This document shows, piece by piece, positions 24,587-29,668 of a stretch of 64,000 nt of DNA. The notes under the pieces are model-generated. The model saw only the letters and a list, made by a program, of their open reading frames with translations, did no database searches and was not told where the DNA came from. Source of the stretch: Actinoplanes sandaracinus (lineage in GTDB: Bacteria; Actinomycetota; Actinomycetes; Mycobacteriales; Micromonosporaceae); the NCBI RefSeq assembly GCF_030009775.1, contig NZ_JASCTH010000007.1, positions 62,001 to 126,000 of the forward strand, read 5' to 3'. Both the position numbers and the translations under genes were made by a program. The stretch's first letter is position 1. Each line of letters opens with the position of its first letter.

Positions 24587-25768
24587 ATGAAATTGCGGAA
24601 TGTGCTGGCCGCCATGATCAGTGGTGTGGCTCTGTCCGTCGTATTCCACGCACCCGCGACGGCCGCCACCACGCTGTATGTGGCGACCGGCGGCAACGAC
24701 GCCGGCGCCGGAACCCTGTCGGCGCCGCTCGCCACCATTCAGAAGGCGATCAGCATGGTCACCGCCGGCGGCACGATCGCGGTGCGCGGCGGCACCTACA
24801 TGCTGGCCACCAACATCCAGATCACCCGGAGCGGCACGTCGGGGGCGCCGATCACCCTGACCGCGTACGGCACCGAACGGGTGATCATCGACGGTGAGAA
24901 CCTGGACTACACGCCGGGAGCGGTCGGTTCCACCATCCCGCGCGCGCAGCGCGGCGCGATCCACATGGAGGCGTCGCACTGGAGGCTGGCCGGGCTGGAG
25001 ATCATTCACGGGCCGTACGGCGTCTATTGCGCGGGGTGCGACGACAACACCTTCGAACGCCTCGTGACCCGCGACAATTACGAGACCGGCTTCCAACTGC
25101 AGGGGTCCTCGGCCGGCAACCAGATCATCAACCTGGACAGTCACGGCAACCGCGACCCTCGCAAGAACGGCGAGAGCGCCGACGGCCTCGGCATCAAGGA
25201 GGGCGGCGGCGCCGGCAACGTGGTACGCGGCGCCCGGCTCTGGAACAACGTCGACGACGGCTTCGACGCCTGGGCTTTCACATCACCGATCACGATCCAG
25301 AACACCGTCGCGTACGGCAACGGCTACAACCGCTGGAGCCTGCCGAACTTCTCCGGTGACGGCAACGGGCTCAAGCTCGGCGGCAGCGGCGGCACCGGCC
25401 CGGCCGCCGCGCACGCGGTCAACAACACGTTCTCCTTCAAGAACGCGGCACACGGGTTCACCGACAACGGCAACACCGGCGCGATCGCGATCAGCCGCAG
25501 CACCGCCTGGCAGAACGCGAAGACCGGTTTCGACGTCGACGGCGGCTCGAAGTCGAAGCTGACGGCGAACCTGGCCGTCGGCAACGCCTCCGCGGTGGCG
25601 CTCGGCTCGTCGACCGCCTCCGGCAACTCGTGGAACATCGGCGGCACCTGGCCGCTGGCCGGCACCGACGCCGCCACGATCACCGGTGCCCGCAACGCCG
25701 ACGGGTCCATCAGGTCGTCGAACTTCCTGGTCCCGTCCAACGGCGCCGCGGTCGGCGCGAGGATCTAA
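24587..25768 (+). CDS. secreted PL9 pectate lyase
   Basis: A 393-residue secreted protein. Residues 1-27 are a signal peptide (MKLRNVLAAMISGVALSVVF then AxA). The mature part starts TLYVATGGNDAGAGTLSAPL, the typical N-terminus of PL9 (PelL/Pel9A) beta-helix enzymes, and contains DGNGLKLGG with the Lys that acts as catalytic base in PelL, as well as ESADGLGIKEGGG acidic Ca2+-site residues. AAGGAG precedes the ATG by 7 nt. It is divergent from the PL1 operon, and its stop overlaps the stop of the convergent MbtH fusion gene. Confidence 0.9.
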   Translation: MKLRNVLAAMISGVALSVVFHAPATAATTLYVATGGNDAGAGTLSAPLATIQKAISMVTAGGTIAVRGGTYMLATNIQITRSGTSGAPITLTAYGTERVIIDGENLDYTPGAVGSTIPRAQRGAIHMEASHWRLAGLEIIHGPYGVYCAGCDDNTFERLVTRDNYETGFQLQGSSAGNQIINLDSHGNRDPRKNGESADGLGIKEGGGAGNVVRGARLWNNVDDGFDAWAFTSPITIQNTVAYGNGYNRWSLPNFSGDGNGLKLGGSGGTGPAAAHAVNNTFSFKNAAHGFTDNGNTGAIAISRSTAWQNAKTGFDVDGGSKSKLTANLAVGNASAVALGSSTASGNSWNIGGTWPLAGTDAATITGARNADGSIRSSNFLVPSNGAAVGARI

Positions 25769-26736
25769 GCGGCCATCTCGATCCGGCCCGCGGGAAGGCG
25801 GCGAACCCGCAGGCCGGTGCGGAACATCAGCCGCCCGTGCCGGGAGCTGAGCGGATCCGGCAGGAAGCGGCTCAGCGTCAGGTCGGGCCGGTCCAGGTAG
25901 CCGGCCGCGATCGGCTCGCCGCCCACGTAGAGCTCACCGGCCTCGGCGGGCCGGAACCGCTCGTCGAAGACGTAGAGGTGACCGCCCGGCAGCGGCGCGC
26001 ACGAGGCGGTGCCGGGCACGGTCACGGCACACAGCATGGTCGTCTCGGGGCAGCCGAGCAGGACGTCCGGGCCGGCCGCGAACCGGGTCAGGCCCGGGCC
26101 GCCGGCGAGCACGGTGAGCGCTTGCGCGTCGCACGGCACGCCGGCCGGCGCCAGGACGAGTTCGGCCCCGGTCAGCAGCGCGCGCAGCACCTCGACCGGG
26201 AACAGCGGGTGGCCGGCCGGGCTGCTCTGCAGCAGTCGCGATCCGGGGCCGAGTCTCGGCAGGCCGCACTCCCCCGCCAGCCGCAGCAGGGTGCGGTGAC
26301 GCCATCGCACGGGCAGATCACCGGACATCACGAGCAGTTCCGGCACCGGCTGGGCGGCGCCGTCGACGAGCGCGGTGAGCAGGTCGCCGACCGGTCCGGC
26401 CCGGTCACCGGCCGGCGAGTCGACGGCGTCCCACAGTTGGCGATAGGTCAGCGACCGCGTCCCGAGGCGCAGCGCCGGGGCGTCCGGTTGCCGGCGCGCC
26501 ACCGCGCGCAGCGCCCGCACCAGCGTCTCGTCCGTGGCACGGGACACCGGTGCGGGCCCGTCGCCCGGCTGCTGCCGGGCGCCGAGCTCGGCCACCTGGT
26601 CGGCGCACGCCTCGACCGTGCCGGCGAACGGGGTCGCCCGCCAGCCGGCCGGGGGCATCTGCCCGACCGGCCACACACCGCGGTCACCGATCTCGTTGAC
26701 GACGATGCGGAAATAGGCCGACTTCACTGCACGCAT
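25765..26736 (-). CDS. MbtH-like domain fused to a degenerate, truncated adenylation domain
   Basis: A 323-residue protein. Residues 5-60 (YFRIVVNEIGDRGVWPVGQM then PAGWR) match MbtH-like proteins, the small partners that activate NRPS adenylation domains. Residues 75-323 resemble an adenylation domain: RTLTYRQLW-like A2 region, a PETTM block where NxYGPTETT (A5) belongs, GELYVGGEPIAAGYLDRPDL (A6) and FRTGLRVRRLPAGRIE (A7). The P-loop A3 (YTSGSTGxPKG) is absent or unrecognisable, the A7 Asp is replaced by Leu, and the frame stops before A8-A10, so the C-terminal subdomain with the catalytic Lys is missing. Catalysis seems impossible. No ribosome-binding site is visible; it probably depends on the 23-codon frame 17 nt upstream. 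Confidence 0.65.
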   Translation of the reverse strand: MRAVKSAYFRIVVNEIGDRGVWPVGQMPPAGWRATPFAGTVEACADQVAELGARQQPGDGPAPVSRATDETLVRALRAVARRQPDAPALRLGTRSLTYRQLWDAVDSPAGDRAGPVGDLLTALVDGAAQPVPELLVMSGDLPVRWRHRTLLRLAGECGLPRLGPGSRLLQSSPAGHPLFPVEVLRALLTGAELVLAPAGVPCDAQALTVLAGGPGLTRFAAGPDVLLGCPETTMLCAVTVPGTASCAPLPGGHLYVFDERFRPAEAGELYVGGEPIAAGYLDRPDLTLSRFLPDPLSSRHGRLMFRTGLRVRRLPAGRIEMAA

Positions 26737-26753
26737 GGCGGGCTCGGGAGAGC

Positions 26754-26825
26754 TCAGTAGCGGAGGACGAACGCGAGCGCCGACACACGCTCGGTCGCGG
26801 CCAGGACTTTCCGGATCATCTTCAT
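26754..26825 (-). CDS. 23-residue peptide (leader peptide or precursor)
   Basis: A 23-codon frame starting MKMIRKVLAA and ending FVLRY, amphipathic and positively charged, with a strong ribosome-binding site (AAGGAG 7 nt before the ATG). The stop lies 17 nt before the start of the MbtH-adenylation fusion, so the two are almost certainly cotranscribed. A response-regulator-type palindrome lies 112 bp upstream. It could be a regulatory leader, a signal or a substrate peptide. The good ribosome-binding site and spacing support translation, but no homologue is known to me. Confidence 0.55.
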   Translation of the reverse strand: MKMIRKVLAATERVSALAFVLRY

Positions 26826-26936
26826 CCTTTTGCTCCTTTCGGGTGGGTACCCGGCAACCGTCCGGCCTGCGTCCGGCCGCTCGCAAGGTGGCGCGGCCCG
26901 GCCGGGCGCAACTGTGGCGGGAGGTGGTACCGGTCC

Positions 26937-26952
26937 TACGACCTAGGTCGTA
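26937..26952. promoter_or_regulatory. TACGAC-type palindrome, site 1 (likely response-regulator box)
   Basis: TACGACCTAGGTCGTA is a perfect 16-bp palindrome in the divergent region between the 23-codon frame and the first UbiA gene, centred 67 bp before the UbiA ATG. The same half-site occurs upstream of the aminotransferase operon and the flippase-like/GH13 pair. The form TACGAC-N4-GTCGTA resembles sites bound by NarL/LuxR-type response regulators such as the one encoded at 28973. Confidence 0.7.
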
Positions 26953-27011
26953 CCGCGGCTCGGCACTCCGGACGGTCCGGGGTAGCCGGTGGCGGCAACA
27001 GGATGTGAGCC

Positions 27012-27902
27012 ATGACGTCCCAGGTGCTCCAGCCCGCTTTCAGCCCGCTGCGCCAGCTCTCCGCCTGCTGGTCCGAGGCCAGACCCGTCGTCCAGATCGT
27101 GTTCCAGCTCCGCTTCTGGGCCGCGGTGGCACTGACCGCCCCGCAGGCCTTCACCGCCCGGCCCGCGTCGGTGCTGCTGGGCGGGACCGCCTGGCTCTGC
27201 GCGACCTGGTACGTCTACCTCATCAACGGGATCTCCGACCAGGTCGAGGACCGGGCCAACGGTTCCGTCCGGCCGCTGGCCTCGGGCCGCCTGCCGGTTC
27301 GGGTGGCGCACCGGTACGCCACGTCGCTGGCGATGACGGCGCTGCTGCTGGCCCTCGCGGTGTCGGTGCGCCTGGCCGTGCTGACCGCGATCATGCTGGC
27401 GCTCGGCTGGGTGTACTCGGCCGGCCCGCACCCGCAGAAGCGCAGCCTGCTCGGGTTCGCGGTGGTGGTCACGATGGGCGGGGTGGTGACCTATCTGGCC
27501 GGCTGCGCGGCCGCGGGCGGGGTGGTGAGCCCGGAACTGCTGGTGCTGATGCTGTCGATGTCGCTGTGGATGGCGCTGGCCGGGTGCACGAAGGATCTCG
27601 GGGACGCGGCCGGGGATCGCGCGGCCGGCCGCCGCACCCTGCCGGTCCTGCTCGGTGATGTGCGGGCCCGCCGCCTGACCGCGGCGTCGGTGCTGCTCGC
27701 CGGAGCCGGAACGGTGACCGCCACGGCGCTGGCCGCGCCGGCGCTGCTGGGCCCGGCGCTGTTGCTGGGCTGTGGCGCGCTGGCTGTCGCCTTCCTGACA
27801 CTCGCCGGCGCCGGGGCCCGGGAGCGTTCCCGGCAACGTCGCCCGTACCGGTACTTCATGGGCAGTCAGTATGTCGTACACCTGTCCATTGTGGCCTTCT
27901 GA
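27012..27902 (+). CDS. UbiA family prenyltransferase (first copy)
   Basis: A 296-residue membrane protein with about eight helices. The first Asp-rich motif appears as NGISDQVEDRANG (NxxxDxxxD form) near residues 71-83 and the second as KDLGDAAGDRAAG near residues 195-207, as in UbiA/MenA enzymes that transfer a polyprenyl chain from a diphosphate. The acceptor is unknown. The gene lies directly before a histidine kinase gene on the same strand (51-bp gap) and downstream of the palindromic site at 26937, so it is probably part of the two-component regulon. Confidence 0.82.
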   Translation: MTSQVLQPAFSPLRQLSACWSEARPVVQIVFQLRFWAAVALTAPQAFTARPASVLLGGTAWLCATWYVYLINGISDQVEDRANGSVRPLASGRLPVRVAHRYATSLAMTALLLALAVSVRLAVLTAIMLALGWVYSAGPHPQKRSLLGFAVVVTMGGVVTYLAGCAAAGGVVSPELLVLMLSMSLWMALAGCTKDLGDAAGDRAAGRRTLPVLLGDVRARRLTAASVLLAGAGTVTATALAAPALLGPALLLGCGALAVAFLTLAGAGARERSRQRRPYRYFMGSQYVVHLSIVAF

Positions 27903-27953: not shown

Positions 27954-28976
27954 GTGACCAGCCAGACGACTGTCGCCGAGCAGGTCTTCGATACACTCCG
28001 CGCACTCCTGACCGAGCAGGGCAGTGAGCTGATCGCCCACCCCGAGGTCGCCGAGCAGCTCGCGATCCAGGTGCGGGCGGTGTTCGACGATGTGACCGCC
28101 GAGATCACCGGCGGCGTTCCTCCCGGTCGCGCTCCGTTGGACGTCGGCACCGACCGCGCCCGGCGCGGCATCCATCCGGCCGAGTCGCTGCGGGCGTCGA
28201 CCGCCCTCTTCGACGTGATGCTCCCGGCGCTGACCGACCTGCTGGCCGCCGACGGCCACGACCCGTTGCGGATCAGCCGCGTCCTGCACAAGGCGATCAT
28301 GACGCGGGTCGCCCAGGCCTCGCTGTCCTACGTGAACTTCCTGATGGAGAAACTGCAGGCGTCCCGCGAGGAGGAGCGCCTGCGGATCTCCCGCGAGCTG
28401 CACGACCGGGTGCTGCACGAGATGGGCCTGGCCGTGCACCGCCTCGATCTGTACCGCTTCTATGCCGACCGTGACCCCGCGCAGGCCCGCGCCAAGGTGG
28501 ACGCCGGCATCGAGTGCGTCGACGAGGCCGCCCGCAGCGTGCGCCTGCTCTCCGCCGAGCTGCGCCGGTCCGCGCGCACCGAGGGCCTGGAGCGGATGCT
28601 GCGCAACTATCTGGCGGTCAACGCGCCCCCGTCGGTCCAGGTGGACGTCTCCACCTCGGGCGACCTGAGCCTGCTTCCGCCGGACGCCCCGGAGGAGCTC
28701 TACCTGATCGTCCGGGAGGCGGCACGCAACGCGCTGCGGCACGCGTCGCCGACCCGTCTGGAGATTCGGATCGACGTGTCACAAGCCGAGGCGCACGCGG
28801 TGGTGTCCGACGACGGGTGTGGTTTCGACCCCGGCGACCCGGAGATCGCCCACGGCGGCCTGCCGTCCATGCACGAGCGCGCCCAGCTGCTGCGCGGCTC
28901 CCTGCGCCTGACCAGCTCCCCCGGCGCGGGCACCCGGGTCGAGGTCCGCCTCCCGTTCGCGCGGGTGACGCTGTGA
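27954..28976 (+). CDS. sensor histidine kinase, NarX/DesK type (HisKA_3)
   Basis: A 340-residue soluble kinase with no membrane helix. Residues 1-130 are an all-helical sensor region of unknown ligand. The dimerisation domain carries EEERLRISRELHDRVLHEMG with phospho-acceptor His150, followed by an HATPase with REAARNALRHASP (N box), SDDGCGFDPG (G1) and GTRVEVRLP. The GTG start has no ribosome-binding site, but TAGCAT lies 7 nt upstream, suggesting a leaderless transcript separate from UbiA. The stop overlaps the response-regulator start. The signal must be cytoplasmic or come via a partner such as UbiA. Confidence 0.9.
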   Translation: MTSQTTVAEQVFDTLRALLTEQGSELIAHPEVAEQLAIQVRAVFDDVTAEITGGVPPGRAPLDVGTDRARRGIHPAESLRASTALFDVMLPALTDLLAADGHDPLRISRVLHKAIMTRVAQASLSYVNFLMEKLQASREEERLRISRELHDRVLHEMGLAVHRLDLYRFYADRDPAQARAKVDAGIECVDEAARSVRLLSAELRRSARTEGLERMLRNYLAVNAPPSVQVDVSTSGDLSLLPPDAPEELYLIVREAARNALRHASPTRLEIRIDVSQAEAHAVVSDDGCGFDPGDPEIAHGGLPSMHERAQLLRGSLRLTSSPGAGTRVEVRLPFARVTL

Positions 28977-29668
28977 CCGGCCCGGCGCTGGAATCGATCA
29001 CGGTCTGCCTGGCCGACGACCACACCCTGATGCGCGACGGCATCCGCGAGATGCTCTCCACCGAGCCCGAGTTCCGGGTCGTCGGCGAGGCGCCCTCCGG
29101 CCACGACGCGATCGCCCTGGTCGCCCGGCTGCGGCCGGACGTGCTGCTGCTCGACGTGGAGATGCCCGGCCCCGGCCCGGTCGCGGTGATCCGCCAGGTG
29201 CGGGCGATGGCGCCGACCACCCGCGTGGTGGTGCTGACCATGCACGACGACGCCGAGATGGTGCACCAGCTGCTGGACGCCGGCGCCGTGGCGTACCTGC
29301 TGAAGACCATCCTGCGGGAGGAGCTGATCGCCGCGGTCCGCTCCGTGGTGCGGCGCCCGGCGCAGAACAACATCCTGCTCGCGGTGTCCCGTGAGACGGT
29401 GCAGCAGCTCGACCGGCAGAAGGCCCGGTCCGAGGGCACCCCACTGACCGCCCGCGAACTGGAGGTGCTGGTCTGCATCGCCGAGGCGATGAGCAACGCG
29501 CAGATCGCGAACCGGCTGTTCATCACCGAGGCCACCGTGAAACGCCACCTGACCAACATCTACGCCAAGTTGCAGGCGGTGTCGCGGGTGGACGCGATCC
29601 GCAAGGCGACCGCCGCCCGGTTGATCAAGCCCGCGGGCGAGCAGCCGCCCTATTCAGCGCCGGCGTGA
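28973..29668 (+). CDS. NarL/LuxR family response regulator
   Basis: A 231-residue regulator. The receiver domain (residues 8-125) has the Asp pair at 15-16, phospho-acceptor Asp61 in LLLDVEMPGP and the Lys of AYLLKT. The C-terminal LuxR helix-turn-helix spans residues 155-215 (LTARELEVLVCIAEAMSNAQ, then EATVKRHLTNIYAKL). It is translationally coupled to the kinase gene (GTGA overlap). The TACGAC-type palindromes at 26937, 29700 and 41849 are its likely targets (inference from family and proximity). Confidence 0.92.
   Translation: MTGPALESITVCLADDHTLMRDGIREMLSTEPEFRVVGEAPSGHDAIALVARLRPDVLLLDVEMPGPGPVAVIRQVRAMAPTTRVVVLTMHDDAEMVHQLLDAGAVAYLLKTILREELIAAVRSVVRRPAQNNILLAVSRETVQQLDRQKARSEGTPLTARELEVLVCIAEAMSNAQIANRLFITEATVKRHLTNIYAKLQAVSRVDAIRKATAARLIKPAGEQPPYSAPA

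Follow-up and report, generated by a model that had tools for sequence, protein, structure and literature searches.

The window, meaning the whole stretch of 64,000 nucleotides of Actinoplanes sandaracinus DNA analysed here, carries on its minus strand a 23-codon frame, referred to below as the leader (26754-26825; MKMIRKVLAATERVSALAFVLRY), which runs from an ATG at 26825 to a TGA. A Shine-Dalgarno (SD) sequence, AAGGAG (26833-26838, minus strand), lies 7 nt 5' of this ATG, and a gap of 17 nt (26737-26753) separates the leader's stop from the ATG of the following gene at 26736, an arrangement already described in an earlier sequence-only reading. The gene behind the gap, MbtHA (25765-26736, minus strand), encodes a 323-aa fusion of an MbtH domain with a shortened adenylation-like domain. 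On the plus strand, divergent from the leader, stands the gene of a UbiA-family prenyltransferase (27012-27902; PF01040, 113.8 bits), followed by those of a HisKA_3 histidine kinase without predicted membrane segment (27954-28976) and a response regulator with a LuxR-type (GerE) DNA-binding domain (28973-29668). Between the leader and UbiA lies the palindrome TACGACCTAGGTCGTA (26937-26952), a putative response-regulator operator; the leader ATG is 111 nt away from it on one side and UbiA about 60 nt on the other. UbiA together with the kinase and the regulator recurs in other genera. An MbtH/adenylation-like fusion beside these three genes is also present in the related loci L053-L058 and L063, and a further locus, L194, has the fusion on a piece of contig that shows, of these three genes, the kinase and the regulator only.

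The identification of the downstream gene as an MbtH fusion is right, with 27.6 bits to the MbtH profile PF03621, barely above its cut-off of 27, and 38.4 bits to the AMP-binding profile PF00501 (cut-off 29.9). The protein is shorter than its counterparts, at 323 aa compared with 413-435 aa in the six relatives that have a complete N-terminus (L074, 340 aa, and L076, 384 aa, were called without an N-terminus and stand outside this range). Alignment shows that internal adenylation-domain sequence has been lost and that the C-terminal part is still conserved. All nine aligned MbtHA proteins stop shortly past an (M)FRTG-like stretch, which we take to be adenylation motif A7; the subdomain that would complete the adenylation domain at its C-terminal end therefore seems to be missing. 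The MbtHA of the window looks degenerate, and it may lack catalytic activity or be in the course of decay.

Ribosome-binding sites were compared by the energy of their best anti-SD duplex, using 157 genes from the window and seven related loci as the comparison set (median -7.4 kcal/mol). The leader site reaches -8.2 kcal/mol and is surpassed by 43% of these genes, whereas the MbtHA start reaches only -2.2 kcal/mol and is surpassed by 94%. The statement that MbtHA lacks a ribosome-binding site of its own is therefore correct as a matter of degree. In seven relatives (L053-L058 and L063) the MbtHA starts pair at -6.4 to -7.3 kcal/mol; L195, where MbtHA was called without its N-terminus, and L161, which gave no match to the start pattern, fall outside this comparison. 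In the relatives examined, MbtHA follows the genes of the kinase and the regulator and has no leader, and in the seven measured it carries an SD itself. Occlusion of the MbtHA start by a hairpin was considered and rejected, given that its opening cost of 13.2 kcal/mol is ordinary (36th percentile), and hence folding provides no particular argument for coupling. Modelling a ribosome that terminates at the end of the leader reduces this cost by only 2.4 to 3.8 kcal/mol, the value varying with the length of RNA folded.

The leader peptide has a net charge of +4, contains no Trp, and found no family at E 0.1 in Pfam, NCBIfam or PHROGs; a search of Rfam gave a single match, at E 0.5, whose 18.8 bits fall short of the gathering score (41.2). 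Its helical moment is 0.27, compared with a shuffle mean of 0.24, and is reached by 39% of shuffles. The description of the frame as a cationic, amphipathic peptide behind a strong ribosome-binding site, ahead of an MbtH fusion gene, was accordingly accurate in part: the anatomy, the MbtH identity and the charge are borne out, the site has the motif and spacing described but not exceptional strength, and amphipathicity is no greater than that of shuffled sequences.

Codon use indicates that the leader is probably a coding frame. Its codon score is 14.3; the scoring model drew its training data from the window and the related loci themselves rather than from an independent set. Among 437 intergenic ATG frames of 18-30 codons from 109 loci, chosen with no SD condition (mean score -5.1, sd 6.6), two score at least 14.2, one of them being the leader. 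When intergenic ATG frames of 15-40 codons were required to have a suitably spaced SD match of six bases, 11 were found in 217 kb of intergenic DNA from 101 loci; four of these score about 12 or more, namely the leader, which is highest, two conserved peptides ending in GFSWG (discussed below), and one frame clipped by the edge of its locus. In addition, the leader start region is easy to open, its opening cost falling in the lowest 10% of the 157 genes. The SD and the codon score together support translation, short of independent proof.

Codon use also bears on a technical explanation, in which a one-base insertion or deletion introduced by sequencing or assembly splits a longer MbtHA N-terminus and so creates an apparent leader. 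The MbtHA frame indeed has no stop back to 26886 and spans the entire leader, and the genome is available as a draft assembly in 99 contigs. However, the leader's codon use is coding-like right up to its stop, and the six relatives with a complete N-terminus begin MbtHA within one or two residues of the same place, without an extension. We regard such an error as most improbable.

Comparison with related genomes places the frame in a single strain. Among 354 genomes of the family, the leader peptide has a match only in its own; in a sensitivity control, a variant with five residues conservatively replaced (78% identity) was recovered there as well, so that relatives at about this level would have been picked up, although more distant ones were perhaps missed. 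Similarly, the 171 bases around the frame have a full-length match in their own genome only, among 60 genomes, of which 59 give some match to the surrounding DNA at E <=1; the best of these outside the own genome covers 37 bases (E 7e-4). In all seven relatives scanned, no SD-bearing frame with a positive coding score lies between the regulator and MbtHA, and none was seen on reading by eye in L194, an eighth relative that keeps MbtHA in the same gene order. For the readings that give the peptide a conserved function, the check in relatives keeping MbtHA is thus negative, all eight being without the frame. This absence argues against a conserved function and is compatible with a lineage-specific leader. 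A conserved signal or drug-like peptide is probably not what the frame encodes, as it is found in one strain only. No relative of the leader peptide was found that would reveal a RiPP-like conserved core, and the proposal that the neighbouring enzymes use the peptide as a substrate gains no support, there being no relative in which a core could be conserved.

We suggest that the frame is translated and serves, in this lineage only, as a leader from which ribosomes pass on to MbtHA, and we would give this reading about an even chance of being correct. Transcription would start in the intergenic region between UbiA and the leader, adjoining the palindrome; ribosomes would load at the leader AAGGAG, read the 23 codons and terminate at the TGA, and reinitiation would follow 17 nt further on at the ATG of MbtHA, a start nearly devoid of an SD. 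In the course of its history, MbtHA probably left its SD behind when it moved to the divergent promoter, and then came to rely on the leader. The leader peptide itself would need no function. This is the simplest reading, as it requires no conserved peptide and accounts for the occurrence together of the frame and the weak SD. Of the three roles put forward in the sequence-only reading (a leader that couples translation, a signal for the nearby kinase and a substrate of the neighbouring enzymes), it is the first that finds support, both in the anatomy and in the comparison, with the weak MbtHA SD confined to this locus as against seven relatives and the frame confined to it as against eight.

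Attenuation leader peptides of the trp and his type offer one point of comparison, since they too are small translated frames ahead of a gene. The leader differs from them in that reading its sequence shows no run of one regulatory codon, a scan of 26700-27050 finds no terminator-like site, and the gap to MbtHA is too short. A closer parallel is reinitiation past short leader frames, which has been proposed for many bacteria, including Actinobacteria (Korolev et al., 2016; PMC4833913). That paper sets the greatest distance for reinitiation at about 12 nt and finds a peak at 10-11 bp in actinobacteria, and it also lists one example with 17 nt. As in the leader genes described there (PMC4833913), the frame is short, lies on the same strand in the 5' leader, does not overlap the structural gene, and has neither a terminator nor a run of one codon. 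In contrast, its gap of 17 nt (18 in the counting of the paper) exceeds both the limit and the peak given there, and the downstream MbtHA is almost without an SD, so that its dependence on the leader would be stronger. Because the gap exceeds the limit of about 12 nt, the leader can be said to work like this class (PMC4833913) and is not assigned to its close-distance members.

Several points weigh against a leader function. The leader SD is ordinary by comparison with other genes, MbtHA may be a shortened and decaying gene, and a consensus scan of 26700-27050 finds no sigma-70-type promoter, so the start of the transcript is a point that we infer. Some genes of high-GC actinobacteria start without an SD, and the MbtHA start could therefore be used in the same way, without dependence on a leader. 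Since the frame occurs in one genome only, no selection on it can be demonstrated.

An alternative view is that the frame has no function and is either a chance occurrence or the relic of a gene start, with an SD and start codons that a rearrangement brought in front of a decaying MbtHA. We consider this possible but doubtful. It would fit the presence of the frame in a single genome, the internal losses of MbtHA, and a gap that lies past the limit for reinitiation in PMC4833913, the last of these being a difficulty for the leader reading as well. Furthermore, the N-terminus of the leader peptide weakly resembles that of a neighbouring secreted lyase (24587, plus strand), but the shuffle P of 0.03 is one of 12 comparisons and not significant, and derivation of the leader from the lyase was rejected. 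Against a relic stand the SD and the codon score, which indicate translation, and MbtHA itself, which is open across 323 codons and retains a conserved C-terminal part.

A different possibility is that the peptide acts itself, as a cluster-situated signal, a small protein or a modified-peptide precursor, and is the counterpart of small peptides encoded in related clusters. The gene neighbourhood recalls the ComQXPA quorum-sensing system of Bacillus, in which an exported peptide with a prenylated Trp is sensed by a membrane-spanning kinase: here, too, a prenyltransferase, a short peptide, a kinase and a LuxR-type regulator adjoin one another. However, the prenyltransferase belongs to the UbiA family and not to ComQ, the kinase has no membrane segments (0 hydrophobic windows above 1.6, compared with 54 in UbiA as a control), and the peptide has no Trp. 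Moreover, in 27 of 28 related UbiA loci the module has no immediate neighbour that looks like a coding peptide frame. In 17 of these loci, no SD-bearing frame with a positive score directly flanks UbiA, the kinase or the regulator; in another ten, directly flanking SD frames score no more than 4.5; and in the remaining one (L168), a flanking frame of 89 codons scores 15.1 and lies near the start of its contig. A ComQXPA-like prenylated pheromone was therefore rejected, on account of the soluble kinase, the absence of Trp and the low scores of flanking frames in 27 of the 28 loci, and the proposal that the peptide is a signal for the nearby kinase is likewise not supported, L168 being the only exception among the flanking frames. 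Literature searches on the cluster, on Streptomyces peptide signalling and on MbtH fusions gave nothing on this locus among the papers listed.

The related clusters nevertheless contain short peptide genes, which favour a peptide that acts itself. A wider set was assembled from 80 of 132 loci encoding an aminotransferase relative; in these, a class-III aminotransferase is accompanied, to varying extent, by genes for an epimerase, a decaprenyl-phosphate phosphoribosyltransferase-like UbiA protein, glycosyltransferases and a phosphatase and by LPG-synthase-TM-like genes. Short frames ending in GFSWG occur in 20 of the 80 listed loci, all from Streptomyces (L090, L091, L093, L095, L097-L103, L105-L107, L109, L114, L117, L118, L137 and L150; e.g., L099:6346-6543), and encode 36-84 aa where called. 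In 18 of the 20, the frame lies upstream of a glycosyltransferase gene, usually with one further small gene between them, and in L137 and L150 it lies on the opposite strand at the other side of the cluster. In L091 the frame is divergent from a gene for a TrmB/LuxR-type regulator. Several Streptomyces loci have, ahead of the GFSWG peptide, a gene of 254 aa, which in L099 (L099:5257-6021) encodes a GntR/UTRA regulator, next to putative sugar-transport-like genes; these surroundings resemble the dasR-dasABC region. A literature search for the GFSWG string returned a single, unrelated paper (on PML bodies).

In Micromonospora-type clusters, a conserved gene for a peptide of 75-81 aa, with a C-terminal part like DDCPPILLY...RN, lies between a SARP/BTAD regulator and a glycosyltransferase (L053:4904-5134, L054:6611-6841, L055:11121-11348, L056:7488-7733, L057:10836-11063 and L058:11080-11313); the BTAD domain of the SARP gene was established for L054 only. 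Small peptides that begin with a hydrophobic stretch and contain the motif DDQWD or DDKWD are also encoded at L113:7936-8163 and L115:8411-8599, each adjoining a regulator-like gene, which beside the L115 peptide has a LuxR-type domain.

Two further observations favour a peptide that acts itself: the leader is divergent to UbiA, in the same position as the arm bearing the SARP gene and its peptide, and 18 of the 28 UbiA loci, when scanned more widely, contain some positively scoring SD-bearing frame, one of which is the gene for the peptide of 75-81 aa in L053-L058. However, the leader shows no significant similarity to the Micromonospora or GFSWG peptides (eight comparisons, with shuffle P between 0.06 and 0.71), and homology was rejected for both, as it was for the DDKWD peptide (shuffle P 0.73). 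The GFSWG peptides share with the leader their character as short frames inside a related gene cluster; they differ in their N-terminal part, which is hydrophobic or rich in Ala, and in the conservation of their C-terminus. A search for a conserved small frame ahead of the glycosyltransferase in six Streptomyces loci that have the regulator gave no SD frame whose coding score is >3. The match in only one of 354 family genomes, the unexceptional amphipathicity, the kinase without a membrane segment and the low-scoring frames that directly flank UbiA, the kinase and the regulator (one edge case aside) also argue against this possibility, which we consider unlikely. More doubtful still is the broader idea that short peptides exchanged between lineages control the cluster family: the GFSWG peptides in Streptomyces, the peptide of 75-81 aa in Micromonospora and, at the present locus, the one of 23 residues, which would serve both as the MbtHA leader and as a signal for the UbiA-kinase-regulator module. 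For peptide signalling, the GFSWG peptides are a better lead than the leader.

The LuxR-type response regulator of the cluster itself probably binds the palindrome between the leader and UbiA as its operator, as the distribution of the motif among related loci suggests. The exact TACGACCNNGGTCGTA occurs once in the 10.19-Mb genome. With at most one mismatch, the motif is found in intergenic DNA of 7 of 11 cluster loci that have the regulator (defined as a response regulator above 55% identity) and of 1 of 69 that do not (Fisher p 8e-7, an optimistic value given that the loci are related). The sole motif-bearing locus without the regulator, L083, is a 6-kb contig and may simply not reach it. 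These counts use L073-L152 only; a wider reading of the palindrome includes L053, L054, L055 and L057 plus L074, L075, L073 and L078, in which the same organisms are counted twice. Separately, GGGAGCGCTCCCA palindromes are present upstream of the kinase/regulator in all six stretches concerned (L079, L081, L082, L084, L085 and L086); these resemble the CebR operator, and in L084 they adjoin putative sugar-transport-like genes and a putative glucosidase-like gene.

Taken together, a putative response-regulator operator and a probably translated leader are well supported, and a conserved peptide signal is not. If the leader does supply ribosomes to MbtHA, the locus would represent a natural case in which a gene, seemingly stripped of its ribosome-binding site on relocation, is served by a new leader, and in which the SD-bearing relatives provide the controls. 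As the gap lies beyond the proposed limit for reinitiation, the case also bears on how far ribosomes can reach.
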